IMG/VR virus record: IMGVR_UViG_3300046009_006732
Location: 1-26,071 of that record
Strand: one strand, 5' to 3'
Source of the DNA: a virus
Length of the DNA stretch: 26,071 bases
The translations under genes and the position numbers were made by a program. This document shows positions 4,481 through 21,620 of the stretch, piece after piece (positions within the stretch are counted from its first letter, which is position 1; the number at the start of each line of letters is the position of its first letter). Below the pieces are notes generated by a model. That model saw only the letters and a list, made by a program, of their open reading frames with translations, was not told where the DNA came from and searched no databases.

Positions 4481-5938
4481 ATGAAAATAGTAGAACTTAA
4501 AATAGATGATTCAGTAATTTCAGGATTTGATGCTACAGCATTAGTTGAATCACCTGCTATAGAGGAAAATTTTATCGCATTCAATAAAGTCAATATGGCA
4601 GAAATGACATATAATGACTATCCACAAGCAGCAGTTGATGCAGCTAAACGTGGTATTGAATTAAATAAAGAAAACAATATGAAATGTGCCACTCAAGTAG
4701 GTAAAGTGAGGGCTCAACAACTAGTGAACGGAGAAAAACTATCACTAGATACAATTAAACGTATGCGTTCATTTTTAATCCGTCAAAAGGGTAATTTTGA
4801 ATTAGCAACTAAACGTAAAGACTATAATGCTTGTGGTTATATCTCATACTTGTTATGGGGTGGAGAGGCAGCATTACCTTGGGCTGAAAAGAAATTACGT
4901 CAAGCAGGTATTGAATTTTCAGCATATGCTGTTTATAACAATGAGGGTTTACTCGAATCATATGCTGAGGTAGGTCCTAGAGGTGGAATTAAAGAATCAC
5001 CTAAAGCACCTAAAAGCGATACACCTAATCCTAATCCAAAAGGTAGAGGCACTGCTAAAGGTGATGCTGGAACAACTCGTGGTGCTGAGGTTGATAAAGC
5101 AACTGAGGAATCATTACAGAAAAAAGCAGACGAGTTTAATGAAAAATATAAAGATAAATTAGGATATGGTGCTAACATAGGTGCCCTAAAATCCGTTTAT
5201 CAACGTGGATTAGGTGCCTATAACACATCACGTTCACCTTCAGTAGCAGCACGTGGAGGTGCTAAACAATGGGCTATGGCACGTGTAAATGCTTATTTAT
5301 ACTTGTTAAAAAACGGACGTCCACAAAATAAAAAATATGTTCAGGATAATGATTTATTACCTGCTAAACACCCTAAAAAAGATGAATTCAATTCTATAAT
5401 CGAGGATATAATTGTTGATTATTTAATTGCTGATTTATTAGGATTAGATGATGAGGATTTTGACATCAATGTAGCACAATTACCTAACTTTATTAATGAG
5501 GCATCATCAGGTAAAAAACGTAATTTCGCAGCCGAGTTAGCAGACAAACAAATGTTAGTAGGTCCGTTAATGACACCAGGCAAATTAATACCTCGTAAAG
5601 ACGAGGATACAGGTGAGGAATACCAAGTATTTTTTAGCGCTGAAACAATTGAAAAAATTGCCTATAAAATGATGCAGGATAAATTACTTGATTCAGTTAA
5701 CATTGAACACGATGGTGCTGTAAAAATTGATGATGCCTATTTAGTTGAAACTTGGATTGTTAAAGATCCAGAACACGACAAATCTACATTATATGGTTTT
5801 CAACCTATGACAGGACAATGGTTTGGTATATACCGAATTGGTGATGGTCGTGTTTGGAATGAATATGTAAAAACAGGTAAAGTTAAGGGTTTTAGTGTTG
5901 AAGGATACTTTTATAACAACGTACTTACTAAAAAATAA
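4481..5938 (+). CDS. XkdF-like prohead serine protease with extra N-terminal domains
   Basis: The C-terminal third (about residues 345-478) matches the pattern of the XkdF-like putative phage serine protease (S78-type): a QMLVGPLMTPGKLIPR entry strand, NIEHDG with a likely catalytic His near residue 410, and KGFSVEGYF with a likely nucleophile Ser near 472. The N-terminal part holds a helical module (about 95-140, MRSFLIRQKGNFELA ... YLLWGG). A middle module near residues 235-305 has SPSVAARGGAKQWAMARVNA and YVQDNDLLPAKHP, a pattern I associate with a phage DUF family. The protein would mature the prohead by cleaving scaffold and capsid. The head module starts downstream, interrupted only by the minus-strand endonuclease gene, whose 3' end overlaps this one by 11 nt. 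Protease family is fairly sure; the role of the N-terminal modules is unknown. Confidence 0.8.
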   Translation: MKIVELKIDDSVISGFDATALVESPAIEENFIAFNKVNMAEMTYNDYPQAAVDAAKRGIELNKENNMKCATQVGKVRAQQLVNGEKLSLDTIKRMRSFLIRQKGNFELATKRKDYNACGYISYLLWGGEAALPWAEKKLRQAGIEFSAYAVYNNEGLLESYAEVGPRGGIKESPKAPKSDTPNPNPKGRGTAKGDAGTTRGAEVDKATEESLQKKADEFNEKYKDKLGYGANIGALKSVYQRGLGAYNTSRSPSVAARGGAKQWAMARVNAYLYLLKNGRPQNKKYVQDNDLLPAKHPKKDEFNSIIEDIIVDYLIADLLGLDDEDFDINVAQLPNFINEASSGKKRNFAAELADKQMLVGPLMTPGKLIPRKDEDTGEEYQVFFSAETIEKIAYKMMQDKLLDSVNIEHDGAVKIDDAYLVETWIVKDPEHDKSTLYGFQPMTGQWFGIYRIGDGRVWNEYVKTGKVKGFSVEGYFYNNVLTKK

Positions 5939-6350
5939 TAGGATTATAGAGAGGATTTAATTGTTGTCTCCAATATAATTCTCTATCTTTGTGATTATCA
6001 CATTCCTCAATTATTCTAATTTCTACATTAGGATATTGTTGTAAAGCTTCATAAAGATATTTTTGATCTGGGCTTGCTATATTTGGATTTTTAATAAACG
6101 ATTTATGTTTACTTATTCTAGCATTAAGTCTACTACTTTCACCCACATATAAACTTAGTTCATTATAAAACATCCCATAAACTCCTTTAGTTTTAGTAGC
6201 CCAAGTTTTATATAACATAGATTGGACTGAAGGATTAGTTATTTGTTTTTTACATTTTTTACACCAGTGCATTAAACCATCTTTAAAAGTTTTATTTTTA
6301 CTAAATTTACTTACAGGTTTAGTTTCTTTGCATTTATTACATTGTTTCAT
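5928..6350 (-). CDS. Zinc-finger GIY-YIG homing-type endonuclease
   Basis: The 140-residue protein begins with a four-cysteine zinc finger (C4, C7, C30, C33) and continues into a GIY-YIG nuclease domain with GVYGMF (56-61), YVGES (68-72) and arginines 74 and 78. A conserved C-terminal part includes IRIIEECD and NPLYNP. Such free-standing nucleases cut DNA of related phages lacking the gene and so spread themselves. It is encoded against the surrounding operon, between the protease and scaffold-like genes, and overlaps the protease 3' end by 11 nt. Its stop is TAG, unusual here. A TTTGG-N19-TATATT promoter on the minus strand ends 6 nt before the ATG, so the message is probably leaderless. The sequence is clearly related to the protein at 17907-18413. 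Cleavage site and activity are not visible from sequence. Confidence 0.88.
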   Translation of the reverse strand: MKQCNKCKETKPVSKFSKNKTFKDGLMHWCKKCKKQITNPSVQSMLYKTWATKTKGVYGMFYNELSLYVGESSRLNARISKHKSFIKNPNIASPDQKYLYEALQQYPNVEIRIIEECDNHKDRELYWRQQLNPLYNPIIF

Positions 6351-6356
6351 AATATG

Positions 6357-6386
6357 AATATAATGACAAAGAACAATAATTCCAAA
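6357..6386 (-). promoter_or_regulatory. Bacteroidota-type promoter for the minus-strand endonuclease gene
   Basis: On the minus strand TTTGG (6382-6386) is followed by exactly 19 nt and TATATT (6357-6362). This matches the Bacteroidota -33 TTTG / -7 TAnnTTTG architecture and has the same spacing as four other sites in the window. The start codon of the endonuclease gene begins 6 nt after the -7 box, so transcription would start at or within a few bases of the ATG. Confidence 0.75.
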
Positions 6387-14246: not shown

Positions 14247-14777
14247 TTATTTTTTACTTTTACTAACTCGATTTTTAGGTTTTCTACCTAATATTGGTGA
14301 ACCTTGTATGACTGTAGGTTGTTTATATGTTGATGTTACTTGAGTATATGTTCCATTACCAGCATCAATTCTTGTTGTTGGTTTTTCTATGTGTAAAGCA
14401 GATGCTACACCAATTAATGTTTGTTCAGGCAATACATTTAATTGAGCAGGATCACAACAATCATTCAAATAAAATAACATCCAACCATCATTAAAGCATT
14501 CCATATAGAATACATTCATACCTTGGCTTACCATTCCGTATAAATGATAAAAGTGCGCGTTTTCTATCATTATCCCAGTTTGATCTCTATTATTATCCTT
14601 AATAGATAATTCTTTAGCTACATTAAGATAAATGTAATATTCCTTATCCTCATGATCTTTCGCCACAAAAGAAATTGGTGCTGTATCTGGAGATGCTATC
14701 TCAAAAGACTTAAAGCGCTCACCTAAAAAGTCGTGGAAAATCTTCGCTTTTTCCTCATTACTAAATATTGTTTTCAT
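14247..14777 (-). CDS. Orphan minus-strand protein, function unknown
   Basis: I do not recognise this 176-residue protein. It is mixed alpha/beta, with KEYYIYLNVAKELSIKD, MIENAHFYHLYGMVSQGMNV and a CC-containing segment (YLNDCCDPAQ), and it ends in a basic tail (GRKPKNRVSKSKK). There is no membrane segment or signal peptide. It is one of only two minus-strand genes. It has its own TTAGG-N19-TATATT promoter whose -7 box ends 6 nt before the ATG, so the mRNA is probably leaderless. It is divergent from the structured RNA candidate and convergent with the adhesin operon. A nuclease-like fold or regulatory role is possible but no motif supports either. An early-expressed accessory gene is the best guess from the promoter class. 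Confidence 0.75.
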   Translation of the reverse strand: MKTIFSNEEKAKIFHDFLGERFKSFEIASPDTAPISFVAKDHEDKEYYIYLNVAKELSIKDNNRDQTGIMIENAHFYHLYGMVSQGMNVFYMECFNDGWMLFYLNDCCDPAQLNVLPEQTLIGVASALHIEKPTTRIDAGNGTYTQVTSTYKQPTVIQGSPILGRKPKNRVSKSKK

Positions 14778-14828: not shown

Positions 14829-14874
14829 TTTTTTTTATTTTAATTTGGCTGTCCTGACTTTTATCATTATATTT
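14829..14874 (+). repeat. Upstream copy of a duplicated T-run/promoter segment
   Basis: A T-run, an AT-rich stretch, AATTTGG, a TGAC near the middle, and ATTATATT recur in the same order and spacing at 15195-15240. The two copies flank the structured RNA candidate and are too alike over about 46 nt to be two independent promoters. Confidence 0.5.
14844..14873 (+). promoter_or_regulatory. Promoter of the structured RNA candidate
   Basis: TTTGG (14844-14848), 19 nt, TATATT (14868-14873). The same spacing is found at four other sites. No protein gene starts within 380 nt downstream, so the transcript would begin near 14880 with the structured noncoding stretch. Confidence 0.75.
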
Positions 14875-15200
14875 ATTGATGACATAAGGTTATTCTAATG
14901 GGCAATAACCTGAAACGATAGAGAGAGTGCGACGCGTAGGAGGTAATGCCGAGCTAACTCAGTACCTCTCCCTCAATGTCCGGAGTGCTGAACTTATATA
15001 TAATAAGGTCTCCGTTAGATGTTCTGGAATATTGTAGTAATAGGGATTAATGAAATTACCCGCCGTATTATATAGAGCCTGAGGCGGTATCTATATAAAT
15101 TAGCGACCAGGCTACAAGAATAATCAGCAACATTGTAAAACTGATATTGTCAGGTTAAGCTACGGGTTTTTTACCTGGGCTATCATTATGTTTCTTTTTT
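14874..15200 (+). ncRNA. Candidate structured noncoding RNA (no known family recognised)
   Basis: No open frame of useful size exists here, the base composition is visibly less AT-biased than other spacers, and helices are dense: AGGTTATT 14887-14894 with AATAACCT 14904-14911; GAGGTA 14940-14945 with TACCTC 14963-14968 capped by GAG/CTC 14951-14960; CGGAG 14981-14985 with CTCCG 15010-15014 enclosing CTTAT/ATAAG; TTGTAG 15032-15037 with CTACAA 15112-15117 closing a junction; TAAT 15038-15041 with ATTA 15055-15058; CCGCC/GGCGG and TATATAGA/TCTATATA crossing at 15060-15097; ATCAG 15123-15127 with CTGAT 15141-15145; CAGGT 15151-15155 with ACCTG 15173-15177. A dedicated promoter ends at 14873 and a T-run at 15195-15200 may mark the 3' end. 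I compared it from memory with RNase P, tmRNA, SRP, group I intron and T-box features and found no match. Exact ends are uncertain. Confidence 0.65.
15060..15113 (+). other. Pseudoknot or alternative-helix switch inside the RNA candidate
   Basis: CCGCC (15060-15064) can pair with GGCGG (15083-15087), TATATAGA (15069-15076) with TCTATATA (15090-15097), and AGCCTG (15076-15081) with CAGGCT (15108-15113). The first two pairings interleave, which is a pseudoknot arrangement; the loop linking GGCGG to TCTATATA is only 2 nt, so they may instead be mutually exclusive. The third pairing shares base 15076 with the second. Confidence 0.5.
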
Positions 15201-15240
15201 ATTATTTAATTTGGTTTTTTGACACTTGATTATTATATTA
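15195..15240 (+). repeat. Downstream copy of the duplicated T-run/promoter segment
   Basis: This segment parallels 14829-14874: T-run, AT-rich stretch, AATTTGG, a central TGAC, then ATTATATT, with the TTTGG and TATATT elements at the same distance. Confidence 0.5.
15210..15239 (+). promoter_or_regulatory. Promoter of the sigma-like operon
   Basis: TTTGG (15210-15214), 19 nt, TATATT (15234-15239). The first gene starts at 15262, 22 nt after the -7 box, leaving a short AT-rich leader. It probably drives 15262-16728 and perhaps further. Confidence 0.75.
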
Positions 15241-15261: not shown

Positions 15262-15651
15262 ATGCCTAAAGATAGATTCAGTAAATTCAAACCAATTAAC
15301 TGGAATAGTGATTGGAAGAAAACAGGAAGTTTTGGTTCACAATATAATACATTGGAACGCAAAGATGCTTATGATGCTTATGCTAAAAATGCTGAGTTAA
15401 AGCAACAAATAACAATCCAGAAACAGCAGAAACAAGCATCTGTTAAATCTAAGAAAACAATTAGAACACCTGAGCAAACAAATAAATTAGAACTCCAGTA
15501 TAGTATGGTTAAAACTTATTTGAATGAATGGGAAGATAGTTTCTTTAATACACTTTTATCACATCAGTTTTCACTTTCTGAAAAACAATCAGAAATTATA
15601 AAGAAAACTTGGTTAAAGTATAGAAATCAGTATTTCAAAGATAATTATTAA
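15262..15651 (+). CDS. Hypothetical basic protein, first gene of the sigma-like operon
   Basis: I do not recognise this 129-residue protein as a whole. The N-terminus (MPKDRFSKFKPINWNSDWKK) is basic and aromatic, the middle is a Gln/Lys-rich helix (QQITIQKQQKQASVKSKKTI), and the C-terminal 45 residues (VKTYLNEWEDSFFNTLL, then FSLSEKQSEIIKKTWLKY) look like a compact helical module I have seen at the ends of various phage proteins. It starts at the first ATG after the TTTGG/TATATT promoter and ends 9 nt before the sigma-like gene, so the two are probably co-expressed. A nucleic-acid or polymerase-binding role would fit but is only an inference. Confidence 0.7.
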   Translation: MPKDRFSKFKPINWNSDWKKTGSFGSQYNTLERKDAYDAYAKNAELKQQITIQKQQKQASVKSKKTIRTPEQTNKLELQYSMVKTYLNEWEDSFFNTLLSHQFSLSEKQSEIIKKTWLKYRNQYFKDNY

Positions 15652-15660
15652 TAGTTATTA

Positions 15661-16233
15661 TTGATGAATTTAACTGATACAGAAAAATGGGAGTATATTA
15701 AAATCCAGATTACCAAGGATTATCCTAAGTTAGTTGCTGATGCTAAACGTATTACCAGCTACAATGCCGAACAATTCGAAGACCTTCTACCTTTCTGTAT
15801 CACAGAATTACTTACTAAAAAACCACTTACTTATTTATACAAACTCATAGTATTAGACAAAGCATTACCAAATTATATGGGTAAATCAATGTCATTAAAT
15901 ATTCGTTCCTCAACATCACCATTCTGGAGTAAATACAGAAAACAAATGTATAACAATAGAGGTGTTTACTTAGCAGAAACTGAGGATGCTTATGTGAATG
16001 GACAATACGATGAAATAGAGATAAGTGAGGATAGTAATTATGAATGTATGATGGAACAACTTAATAAAATGAATTTCTACAATCAGGCAATCCTAACAGA
16101 TTACTTTATATATGAAATGACATACCAGCAACTAAATAAAAAATACGGCATATCACTTAATAATCTCAGGAAAGCAGTGGATGAAGGGTTAGCAATTATA
16201 AGGGATGCCTGTAAACAATCACAAAACATATGA
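15661..16233 (+). CDS. Sigma-factor-like helix-turn-helix protein
   Basis: The C-terminal part of this 190-residue protein (about residues 140-185) has the layout of sigma region 4: a helix ending YFIYEMTYQQLNKKYGIS followed by the recognition-like helix LNNLRKAVDEGLAIIRDAC. The preceding part is helical with a region-2-like size, including LPFCITELLTKKPLTYLYK and an acidic linker (DEIEISEDSN). Proteins of this kind in Bacteroidota phages could redirect host RNA polymerase to late genes, which fits the absence of the TTTGG/TATATT element before the virion genes. It could also be a simple DNA-binding protein or a packaging factor. Start is the ATG at 15661 or the overlapping ATG at 15664. Its stop overlaps the next start (ATATGAAC). 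Confidence 0.55.
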   Translation: MMNLTDTEKWEYIKIQITKDYPKLVADAKRITSYNAEQFEDLLPFCITELLTKKPLTYLYKLIVLDKALPNYMGKSMSLNIRSSTSPFWSKYRKQMYNNRGVYLAETEDAYVNGQYDEIEISEDSNYECMMEQLNKMNFYNQAILTDYFIYEMTYQQLNKKYGISLNNLRKAVDEGLAIIRDACKQSQNI

Positions 16234-16481: not shown

Positions 16482-16728
16482 GTTATTAGGGTTAGCAGTA
16501 TTAGGGGTAATGATTAGCGAATGGTTCCAACCATTACAATGGATAAAAAACTATTTTAAGTTATACAACTACAAAGTAACCAGCTGGTTATATTGTGTAA
16601 AGTGTGTTTGCTTCTGGTTAGGATTAGCTATCACACTTAGTTTGGTAAAGGCAGGAGTTGTTTGTATATTTGGATATATTATAAGTTATCTAATTGACAA
16701 ACTAGATGTAGACAGATATGGACACTAA
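16474..16728 (+). CDS. Small membrane protein with CVKCVCFW motif, possible holin-like
   Basis: The 84-residue protein has an N-terminal hydrophobic segment (LLGLAVLGVMISEWF) and a second hydrophobic region (about residues 45-75) that begins with CVKCVCFWLGLAITL. A CxxCxxFW motif opening a membrane helix recalls DUF1360-type small membrane proteins of phages and bacteria. Holin function is possible because of the size and two membrane spans but is not shown. It overlaps the upstream membrane protein by 8 nt, and its 3' end overlaps the start of the GIY-YIG gene by 11 nt. Confidence 0.6.
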   Translation: MIELLGLAVLGVMISEWFQPLQWIKNYFKLYNYKVTSWLYCVKCVCFWLGLAITLSLVKAGVVCIFGYIISYLIDKLDVDRYGH

Positions 16729-17131
16729 ACAATGTACTAAATGTGGTGAAATAAAATCACTAACGGAATTTAATAAAGATAAATCACGTTTGTCAGGTTA
16801 TACTTATTATTGTAAAACCTGTTTTAGGGTTAGAGTAGATAGTTTCCATAATAGTTGGGGTTCAGGTGTATATAGAATTATAAATAAAATTACTAATGAA
16901 TCTTATATTGGGCAATCAACTCAATTACGTAGACGGAAATGTGAACATTTTACCTTAGGTAGACAATTACAAACTACAAGTCCTTTATTAGAGGCAAATA
17001 TTAGGCAATATGGTAAACGTAATTTTGATTTTATTATATTAAATAAATGTTCAGTTGATGAATTAGAACAATTAGAAAAACAATATATTCAAGAATTAAA
17101 ACCAACATTAAATAACAGTGATAAACTTTAA
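16718..17131 (+). CDS. Zinc-finger GIY-YIG homing-type endonuclease
   Basis: This 137-residue protein has a four-cysteine finger (C6, C9, C32, C35) and then a typical GIY-YIG nuclease: GVYRI (50-54), YIGQS (63-67), arginines 71-73, H77, and a later ELEQLEKQYIQEL helix with the expected catalytic-type glutamate. It is embedded in an operon with overlaps on both sides (11 nt with the membrane protein gene, 14 nt with the next gene, which starts with GTG). The nuclease is less similar to the other three, so it probably arrived independently. No separate promoter was seen. Confidence 0.9.
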   Translation: MDTKQCTKCGEIKSLTEFNKDKSRLSGYTYYCKTCFRVRVDSFHNSWGSGVYRIINKITNESYIGQSTQLRRRKCEHFTLGRQLQTTSPLLEANIRQYGKRNFDFIILNKCSVDELEQLEKQYIQELKPTLNNSDKL

Positions 17132-17906: not shown

Positions 17907-18413
17907 ATGGAAACTATGAAAACGTGTAATAAATGTAAGGTTGAAAAAGAATTTATTAATTTTAGTAAACATAAACGAAATAAAGATGGTTTACATAGCT
18001 GGTGTAAGTCTTGTGTAAATAACGGAGTTAAAAAATATTTTAAAACAGAAGAAGGTAAAAAAACACTTAAAAAACACAGACAAGCATACATTAAAACAGA
18101 AAAATCTAAACAATTACATAAATCACGTATGACTAAAAGTATTGGTGTTTATGAATGGTTTGATAATGATATATCCTTATATATTGGACAAAGTAGTTGG
18201 TTATATTCAAGAATTTGTAGTCATAAATCTTGGTTAAAAAATCCATTATCCGCCCCTAAATCCTCACAATATCTTTATCCCTTACTACAACAACATCCTA
18301 ATGCGTCTATACGCGTAATAGAGGAATGTTCGCGTGAGGTATTGCTTGAACGTGAACAGCATTATATAGACACTAAAAAACCGCTATATAACAAATATGT
18401 ACCAACAACATAA
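17907..18413 (+). CDS. Zinc-finger GIY-YIG homing-type endonuclease with helical linker
   Basis: The 168-residue protein has a four-cysteine finger (C7, C10, C33, C36) and a basic helical linker (about residues 43-75, YFKTEEGKKTLKKHRQAY and a second KTEKSK unit) of the type that binds DNA between finger and nuclease. The nuclease part has GVYEWF (80-85) and YIGQSS (92-97). The C-terminal half (SHKSWLKNP, YLYPLLQQHPN, IRVIEEC, LEREQHYI, KPLYN) is clearly related to the minus-strand protein at 5928-6350. The gene sits directly upstream of the terminase genes, a common location for free-standing homing nucleases. The start is ATG 17907 or 17916. No promoter of the TTTGG/TATATT class was found upstream. 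Confidence 0.9.
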   Translation: METMKTCNKCKVEKEFINFSKHKRNKDGLHSWCKSCVNNGVKKYFKTEEGKKTLKKHRQAYIKTEKSKQLHKSRMTKSIGVYEWFDNDISLYIGQSSWLYSRICSHKSWLKNPLSAPKSSQYLYPLLQQHPNASIRVIEECSREVLLEREQHYIDTKKPLYNKYVPTT

Positions 18414-20485: not shown

Positions 20486-20515
20486 TTTGGCTTTCCAAGA
20501 GGCATTTCGTATATT
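20486..20515 (+). promoter_or_regulatory. Promoter of the lipoprotein cassette
   Basis: TTTGG (20486-20490), 19 nt, TATATT (20510-20515), starting 10 nt after the terminator. The lipoprotein ATG lies 25 nt after the -7 box. It insulates the cassette from the terminase operon. Confidence 0.78.
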
Positions 20516-20540
20516 CACGGCATAGAAAAAAATAAAAGTT

Positions 20541-21005
20541 ATGAAAAGAATAGGTTATTCATTGTTATTAGTTTTAACATTAGCAAGTTGTCAAAAAGAA
20601 CAACCTATTACACCTACACCACGTGCTAATACAAAATTACCTGTAGTAACAACATATGGTTATTTTATTCCAAGTAATGCTAAAAAAGATACAACTATTT
20701 GGATTAGTAATATATTAAAAGAAACCTATAAAAATTGTTATATAAATGGTGTTCTGTGGAGAGAGGAATTATATAATTCAGAGATATGGGGTATTGATAC
20801 TCTTTATGTTGTTAAAGTAGAGGCATATACAGGTGCTGATTCACATAGAGAAGATATTATTAATATTAAATCAACTAGAGGATTAGATTTACAAATGGTT
20901 AAAGTTAGTAATAACATTATACATTTTGATACAGCACAACAAGTTTTAGTAATGAAACATATTTTAAATCCAACTTACACCGATTATTACACTTATAAAA
21001 AATAA
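20541..21005 (+). CDS. Phage-encoded lipoprotein
   Basis: The N-terminus MKRIGYSLLLVLTLASC is a lipoprotein signal peptide with lipobox LASC and lipidated Cys17, followed by QKEQ and a Pro/Thr-rich linker. The mature part (about 135 residues) is beta-rich, with TKLPVVTTYGYFIPSNAKKD, then NCYINGVLWREELYNSEIWG and TLYVVKVEAYTGADS, without a known motif. Exported phage lipoproteins often alter the host surface and block superinfection, but that is family-level analogy. The gene has its own promoter just after a terminator and is followed by two small genes before another terminator, the layout of a moron-type cassette. Target and function are unknown. Confidence 0.75.
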   Translation: MKRIGYSLLLVLTLASCQKEQPITPTPRANTKLPVVTTYGYFIPSNAKKDTTIWISNILKETYKNCYINGVLWREELYNSEIWGIDTLYVVKVEAYTGADSHREDIINIKSTRGLDLQMVKVSNNIIHFDTAQQVLVMKHILNPTYTDYYTYKK

Positions 21006-21010
21006 AAGTT

Positions 21011-21226
21011 ATGAAAACACAAACAACAAGTTACAGAACACAACTCTTAACTACTAAGGGTGAAACCATTAGAACATTCATTTCAGCATCTAAACCTGCT
21101 GTTCGCTTTGGAAGCGAAGGAACTGAAATCAACTATCAAGACAGCGATACTAGCTTTACCATTTTAGGTAGCTGGAATTGTGTTATTGAGAAAGTAGATA
21201 ATGAACTTCTCTATGAAAACGTGTAA
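21011..21226 (+). CDS. Small hypothetical protein of the lipoprotein cassette
   Basis: This 71-residue protein (MKTQTTSYRTQLLTTKGETI, then FGSEGTEINYQDSDTSFTIL and WNCVIEKVDNEL) is soluble, beta-rich and has no recognised motif. It lacks a signal peptide, so unlike its upstream partner it should stay in the cytoplasm. It begins 5 nt after the lipoprotein stop with the same leader (AAAATAAAAGTTATGAAAA) repeated, which suggests co-translation or a small duplication of the leader. Its 3' end overlaps the endonuclease gene. A partner or immunity role to the lipoprotein is conceivable but unsupported. Confidence 0.65.
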   Translation: MKTQTTSYRTQLLTTKGETIRTFISASKPAVRFGSEGTEINYQDSDTSFTILGSWNCVIEKVDNELLYENV

Positions 21227-21620
21227 GTTATGTAATATTGAAAAACCATTAACTGAATTCAATACAAGACAAAATAAAATAAATGGATCTATTTATTATG
21301 AACCTTATTGTAAACCTTGTCGTATTAAAAAAGTAGCAAAACATCGAAAAGATAATTGGGATAATTATCTTCAACAGAGTAAAAAATATTACTATAAAAG
21401 AAAACTTGATTATTGGGTTGTATACCTAATACCAAGTATTAATTATGTAGGCAAAACTAATTTCCCAGAACGTAGAATGGCTACACACAGGAGTGAATCT
21501 AATATTGATACAACAGGATGGAAAATATTACACACTAATTTGACTGAAAGTGAAGCTTTAAAAATTGAAAAGGAATATCATACTAATGGATATACAGGAT
21601 TTAAAAATTGGAAAAAATAA
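21201..21620 (+). CDS. Zinc-finger GIY-YIG homing-type endonuclease (divergent)
   Basis: The 139-residue frame has a four-cysteine finger (C8, C11, C37, C40), a basic helix (about 42-68), and a divergent GIY-YIG nuclease: WVVYLI (72-77), INYVGKT (80-86), R91/R92 and H96, with a later EALKIEKEYH helix carrying the expected glutamate. The likelier start is the ATG at 21213, because it puts the finger at the very N-terminus (MKTCKLC) as in its relatives. It overlaps the previous gene and closes the lipoprotein cassette, just before the terminator at 21650-21671. Strict GIY is replaced by VVY, so activity is less sure than in the others. Confidence 0.8.
   Translation: MNFSMKTCKLCNIEKPLTEFNTRQNKINGSIYYEPYCKPCRIKKVAKHRKDNWDNYLQQSKKYYYKRKLDYWVVYLIPSINYVGKTNFPERRMATHRSESNIDTTGWKILHTNLTESEALKIEKEYHTNGYTGFKNWKK

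Follow-up and report, generated by a model that had tools for sequence, protein, structure and literature searches.

A conserved noncoding RNA candidate with its own promoter in a hypervariable slot of a tailed phage

Whether a gene-free stretch of a phage genome is a mere spacer or the source of a functional RNA was the question raised by a locus in an IMG/VR virus record. The window, i.e., the whole stretch of 26,071 bases that was analysed, is from a tailed phage and encodes a portal, a tape-measure protein and TerL. A region flanked by the leftward gene m176 (176 aa) and the rightward gene p129 (129 aa) had been proposed in a sequence-only reading to encode a structured noncoding RNA of no recognised class, driven by its own promoter. 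The features of this locus are as follows.

14247..14777, minus strand: m176, left border of a hypervariable slot, outside the cassette; conserved in relatives whether or not they carry the RNA.
14844..14875, plus strand: promoter of the RNA, with TTTGG at 14844-14848, a 19-nt spacer and the -7 box TATATTTA at 14868-14875.
14880..15190, plus strand: the whole structured noncoding RNA, with predicted start and approximate 3' end; homologues in L002/L003, L076, L004/L020 and L078/L096.
15210..15239, plus strand: separate promoter of p129, of identical geometry, conserved in L004 and L078.
15262..15651, plus strand: p129, a small basic protein (pI 9.7) and candidate RNA partner.
15661..16233, plus strand: Q190, right border of the slot, outside the cassette; a sigma-factor-like regulator.

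The claim that about 320 nt here contain no plausible gene was borne out, as no ORF of at least 60 aa was found within the RNA region and the longest small frames were of 36, 24 and 21 codons. The region was also less AT-biased than the spacers, as had been read, with a GC content of 0.36-0.43 against 0.26-0.29 in the adjoining spacers. Similarly, the reported failure to match known RNA classes held in an Rfam scan even at permissive E-values, with no match in the window at gathering scores or at E<=5 and none in L076 at E<=2; weak matches to MtlS (20 bits against a gathering score of 80 bits) and SNORD48 were dismissed as chance. A literature search returned only general papers and no published RNA fitting this description.

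The window contains five exact copies of the pattern TTTGG-N19-TATATT, where shuffled sequences would lead one to expect 0.08. One copy (14844) precedes the RNA and the other four (15210 before p129, 16641, 20486, and 6386 on the minus strand) each lie upstream of a gene, so that the exact geometry said to be common to the RNA and four genes was confirmed. Both promoter boxes are retained in L076 despite a diverged spacer, and the own promoter of the RNA is thus both statistically exceptional and conserved. The primary sigma factor of Bacteroidota recognises TTTG near -33 and TAnnTTTG at -7 (PMC7366714; PMC9723704), which the promoter resembles; the host type is suggested by the promoters alone. 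In flavobacteria the -7 box spans positions -12 to -5 (PMC9723704), which puts the likely 5' end of the RNA at 14880. The promoters at 6386 (minus) and 16641 precede two GIY-YIG endonuclease genes, and that at 20486 precedes a small gene with a lipoprotein-like N-terminus; genes bearing this promoter look like autonomous cargo. The window holds four GIY-YIG-like genes of one type with Cys-rich N-termini (5928-6350 on the minus strand, 16718-17131, 17907-18413 and 21201-21620), two confirmed by Pfam and two by eye, and two of them share the exact promoter of the RNA. The small gene at 20486-21005 combines a lipoprotein-like signal (LASC) with the same promoter and seems to be a further piece of autonomous cargo.

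Homologues were sought in IMG/VR through the neighbouring genes and exact patterns, and were recovered. The RNA is present in the near-identical phages L002/L003; L076 carries it at full length minus the last bases, and L004/L020 and L078/L096 carry its 3' half on contigs that start inside the RNA. The set amounts to about four different sequences; three of the contigs stem from a single metagenome, and no genome is complete. The breaking of these three contigs inside the RNA may reflect assembly behaviour at a segment common to several genomes. Over the core (14965-15157) the window and L076 agree at 96.8% of positions, and the part from 15050 to 15157 is 99.0% identical to that of L020, against 60-77% in the flanking genes (m176 71%, p129 77% and 60%, Q190 60-62% nucleotide identity) and 80-88% in the more distant genes for MCP, portal and TerL. 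A covariance model of the core found no further copy in approximately 780 kb of loci or in 21 whole RNA-lacking records; its matches of 7-15 bits in relatives (L040, L014, L130-L135) are at chance level, and further exact-pattern matches (L080-L089, L111-L125) showed no similarity outside the pattern and were likewise set aside as chance. Cultured phage records gave only a 44-base AT-rich match, plasmids contained no homologue, and in bacterial and archaeal genomes (GTDB) neither the RNA pattern nor relatives by a TerL profile were found.

The helices that had been read from the letters are real. The junction and interleaved helices exist, but the minimum free energy of the whole RNA (14880-15190) is no better than that of dinucleotide shuffles (z -0.60), and that of the L076 RNA likewise equals its shuffles. 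Perfect helices are moderately in excess, with 4 of at least 8 bp against 0.7 +/- 0.9 in shuffles and 6 of at least 7 bp against 2.8 +/- 1.6. Single-sequence folding was therefore rejected as proof of structure, the helix list by itself is weak evidence, and the claim of more than chance structure rests on the comparison of homologues. The predicted elements are given below.

14887..14911, plus strand: P0, the 5' hairpin AGGUUAUU/AAUAACCU; local z -2.9.
14906..14913, plus strand: 5' strand of P1, UAACCUGA, with 8 perfect pairs to 15150-15157; identical in L076.
14921..14965, plus strand: variable domain; the L076 sequence differs and yet also folds as an arm.
14981..15014, plus strand: P3 hairpin, CGGAG/CUCCG (14981-14985 with 15010-15014) and CUUAU/AUAAG (14993-14997 with 15003-15007).
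15018..15134, plus strand: P4, a long-range helix (15018-15027 with 15124-15134; 15032-15038 with 15111-15117); domain z -1.7.
15060..15098, plus strand: P6, UUAUAUAGA/UCUAUAUAA (15068-15076 with 15090-15098).
15150..15157, plus strand: 3' strand of P1, UCAGGUUA, identical in all homologues.
15158..15181, plus strand: 3' hairpin of 9 pairs with one bulge; local z -2.3 and, in a separate calculation, z -3.5.

The P1 pairing UAACCUGA/UCAGGUUA would close the whole core. The junction-closing helix noted earlier (15032-15037 with 15112-15117, TTGTAG/CTACAA) proved to be part of P4, which is present and invariant in L076. The interleaving was also confirmed, as CCGCC/GGCGG (15060-15064 with 15083-15087) interlocks with P6 in a possible pseudoknot, and the P6 region is unchanged in L076, L004 and L078 except for a one-base gap at one P6 pair. 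P1, P4, P6 and the CCGCC/GGCGG pseudoknot are thus plausible candidate pairings, invariant in the homologues. The 3' end of the RNA is probably at or beyond the hairpin 15158-15181, which is a weak terminator candidate; a T-rich stretch begins about 10 nt past it.

The substitutions were examined in P0, P1, P3, P4, P6 and the 3' hairpin. Compared with L076, 11 substitutions outside the variable domain broke none of 51 pairs and one was compensated, C-G becoming A-U at 14993/15007 in P3; in P0, two A-U pairs changed to G-U with none broken. The joint chance of the L076 pattern was approximately 0.001 in a random-placement simulation. In the 3' hairpin compared with L004, two pairs were compensated and two were kept through G-U with none broken (chance approximately 0.00015). 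Both probabilities are approximate because some helices were chosen while viewing these same sequences. In total, three pairs changed on both sides and yet remained paired, four took G-U steps, and no tested pair was broken. The near-invariant core, the lack of an Rfam match and the compensatory and G-U-tolerant changes on the plus strand together supported the reading of an unclassified structured RNA, and the region very probably represents a real, conserved and functional RNA.

The RNA is missing from close relatives that retain the remainder of the region, and their slot between m176 and Q190 holds other ORFs. The three RNA-bearing types whose right flank is known all carry p129, which none of the RNA-lacking relatives has. 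The approximately unbiased (AU) test rejected the RNA carriers as one clade with TerL (p=0.0004), Q190 (p=0.0045) and m176 (p=0.02), and Q190 of the window is closer to that of the RNA-lacking L092 and L018 than to that of the RNA-bearing L020. The co-occurrence and the AU tests together indicate that the RNA and p129 move or are lost jointly and independently of their neighbours. A link of the RNA to p129 is suggested by three right flanks and adjacency. The p129 protein has a disordered N-terminus with a KDRFSKxKP motif, which persists even where the remaining sequence has changed, and a C-terminal domain modelled with confidence as three helices; its fold gave no confident match among solved or viral structures, and neither p129 nor m176 matched a Pfam family above cut-off. 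A 104-aa basic slot protein in L029 (7014-7325) and L106 (371-682) has a C-terminal SxKQxxxLxxLxxK-like pattern in common with p129 and is perhaps a distant counterpart without the RNA. L012 and L055 are a single 31-kb contig (IMGVR_UViG_3300020042_010889) with two TerL genes, 93% and 64% identical to that of the window, which points to a chimeric assembly or to duplication of the packaging module.

The best solved-structure matches of Q190 are ECF sigma factors (Foldseek E 1e-3, with a model pTM of only 0.42), and weak PHROG matches were to sigma and Q-like antitermination families. Encoded upstream of the packaging genes, Q190 resembles a sigma factor of the ECF type and is possibly the late transcription regulator of the phage. 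The main rival explanation is that the RNA is a cis-acting leader, comparable to the leader of the lambda late promoter (6S RNA) or put of HK022, which would head the downstream operon and govern whether transcription continues into p129, Q190 and the packaging genes. The place of the RNA upstream of such a regulator and of the packaging genes fits, and P0 and P1 have bases in common, which makes them mutually exclusive in a switch-like manner. In addition, the slot of some RNA-lacking relatives carries unrelated units of promoter, short structured RNA and terminator. Such promoter-proximal structured noncoding stretches were seen in L018 (6483-6590), L101 (3296-3375) and L107 (3012-3130), two of them with clear intrinsic terminators (GGGGAAC..GUUCCCC-U8 and AAGGGCCCUU..AAGGGCUCUUUUU); these three had no Rfam match and were not homologous to the RNA of the window by covariance model. 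Against a leader role, a conserved promoter belonging to p129 separates the RNA from the operon, the inheritance of Q190 does not follow that of the RNA by the AU test given above, and the 3' hairpin has no directly adjacent U-run and was not flagged by a terminator scan. As p129 has its own promoter and the RNA is not co-inherited with the regulator, the leader explanation is weakened and we consider it rather unlikely.

Recent homologous recombination among co-occurring phages might conserve the segment by youth and not by function. L020 and L096 share 141 of 141 RNA bases and 66 of 68 spacer bases before identity falls to approximately 60% inside p129, which could partly reflect exchange, and the presence of the RNA is incongruent with the flanking trees. 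However, the differences of the window from L076 and L004 are not scattered; they cluster in one arm, in hairpin loops and in compensated pairs, and conservation by youth is improbable.

The inverted repeats and the strong conservation of primary sequence would also suit an element acting as DNA, such as a replication origin or a packaging or recombination site. All four one-sided changes, however, keep pairing by G-U only as plus-strand RNA, and they would be A-C mismatches on the other strand and G-T mismatches in cruciform DNA; plus-strand RNA is therefore favoured. A promoter exactly at the 5' edge and the absence of the segment in close relatives whose region is otherwise retained also speak against a DNA element, which we regard as very unlikely. 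A messenger for a tiny peptide, alone or as a second function of the RNA, was considered because a 36-codon GTG frame (14927-15037) has its C-terminal half in common with a 31-codon frame in L076. The start codon and the first half differ between the two frames, each of the three codons that differ in the shared half encodes another amino acid, and the first and the last of these differences fall on opposite strands of the P3 pair that was compensated; the peptide-coding reading was rejected, and there is scarcely any likelihood left for it. A distant relative of RNAs already described (the guide of a mobile nuclease, such as HEARO/omega RNA or Cas12f-like, retron/DGR RNA, tmRNA or RNase P) is just as poorly placed: size and possible pseudoknot are similar and Q190 matches a subunit of an RNA-guided transcription complex, but only at rank 21 amid many ordinary sigma factors, Rfam gave no match, ARAGORN and Rfam found no tRNA or tmRNA in the window, no nuclease partner was seen beside the RNA, and no reverse transcriptase (RVT_1), the partner of a retron or DGR RNA, was found in the five records searched, all incomplete genomes.

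The conserved core, the kept structure, the exceptional promoter, the restriction to the slot, the co-occurrence with p129 and the phylogeny-independent presence are computed observations. The explanation that we prefer, an autonomous plus-strand structured RNA of about 300 nt carried as moron-like cargo and acting in trans with p129 as partner, has as a whole about an even chance of being right. The primary sigma factor of the host would drive transcription of the RNA, starting at about 14880 and ending at the 3' hairpin near 15181. The transcript would fold around the long-range P1, with a compact core made of P4 with P6 and the possible pseudoknot. It may then work in trans as the scaffold of a ribonucleoprotein or as a decoy, with p129 as the likely protein partner; this trans action linked to p129 is, taken separately, a tentative proposal somewhat short of even. 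As an exchangeable cargo, the RNA would most likely target the host, through regulation, takeover or counter-defence, and not function inside the virion, a host-directed accessory role being likelier than a packaging role because of the cassette organisation. A minor possibility is that the RNA represents a new phage class forming a ribonucleoprotein with the co-inherited p129, exchanged as a two-part anti-host or counter-defence cassette.

ROOL and GOLLD are phage-borne structured RNAs with pseudoknots, of unknown function and with no obligate protein gene (PMC12286853). The RNA of the window is also phage-borne and structured with a possible pseudoknot, but it has no Rfam match, is approximately 300 nt long compared with more than 800 nt for many GOLLD members, and does not lie beside tRNA genes, none being present in the window. 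The earlier proposal of GOLLD, ROOL and HEARO as precedents thus survives as an analogy and not as a match to those Rfam families. HEARO/omega RNA, also structured and some hundreds of nt long, accompanies mobile DNA; unlike it, the RNA studied here has no IscB-like gene seen alongside. The leader of the lambda late promoter (6S RNA) and put of HK022 are short phage RNAs that have a promoter to themselves and precede a regulator and late genes. The own promoter and the position upstream of a regulator are common to the window RNA, whereas here the next gene has its own promoter, the presence of the RNA is untied to the regulator and the sequence constraint is far stronger. The closest organisation is that of phage moron cassettes: an autonomous promoter was found, together with an exchangeable slot and a presence independent of the flanking genes and their phylogeny, the difference being a cargo of RNA plus a small protein gene instead of protein genes only.

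To our knowledge, there are few structured phage RNAs of unknown function. If the preferred explanation is true, this RNA would be a new family, compact and near-invariant, travelling as cargo, and the adjacent protein gene would give an immediate handle for a partner search. Single-sequence folding statistics miss such an RNA and a few homologues reveal it, and the slot around it may prove a generally useful site in which to look for more phage RNAs.
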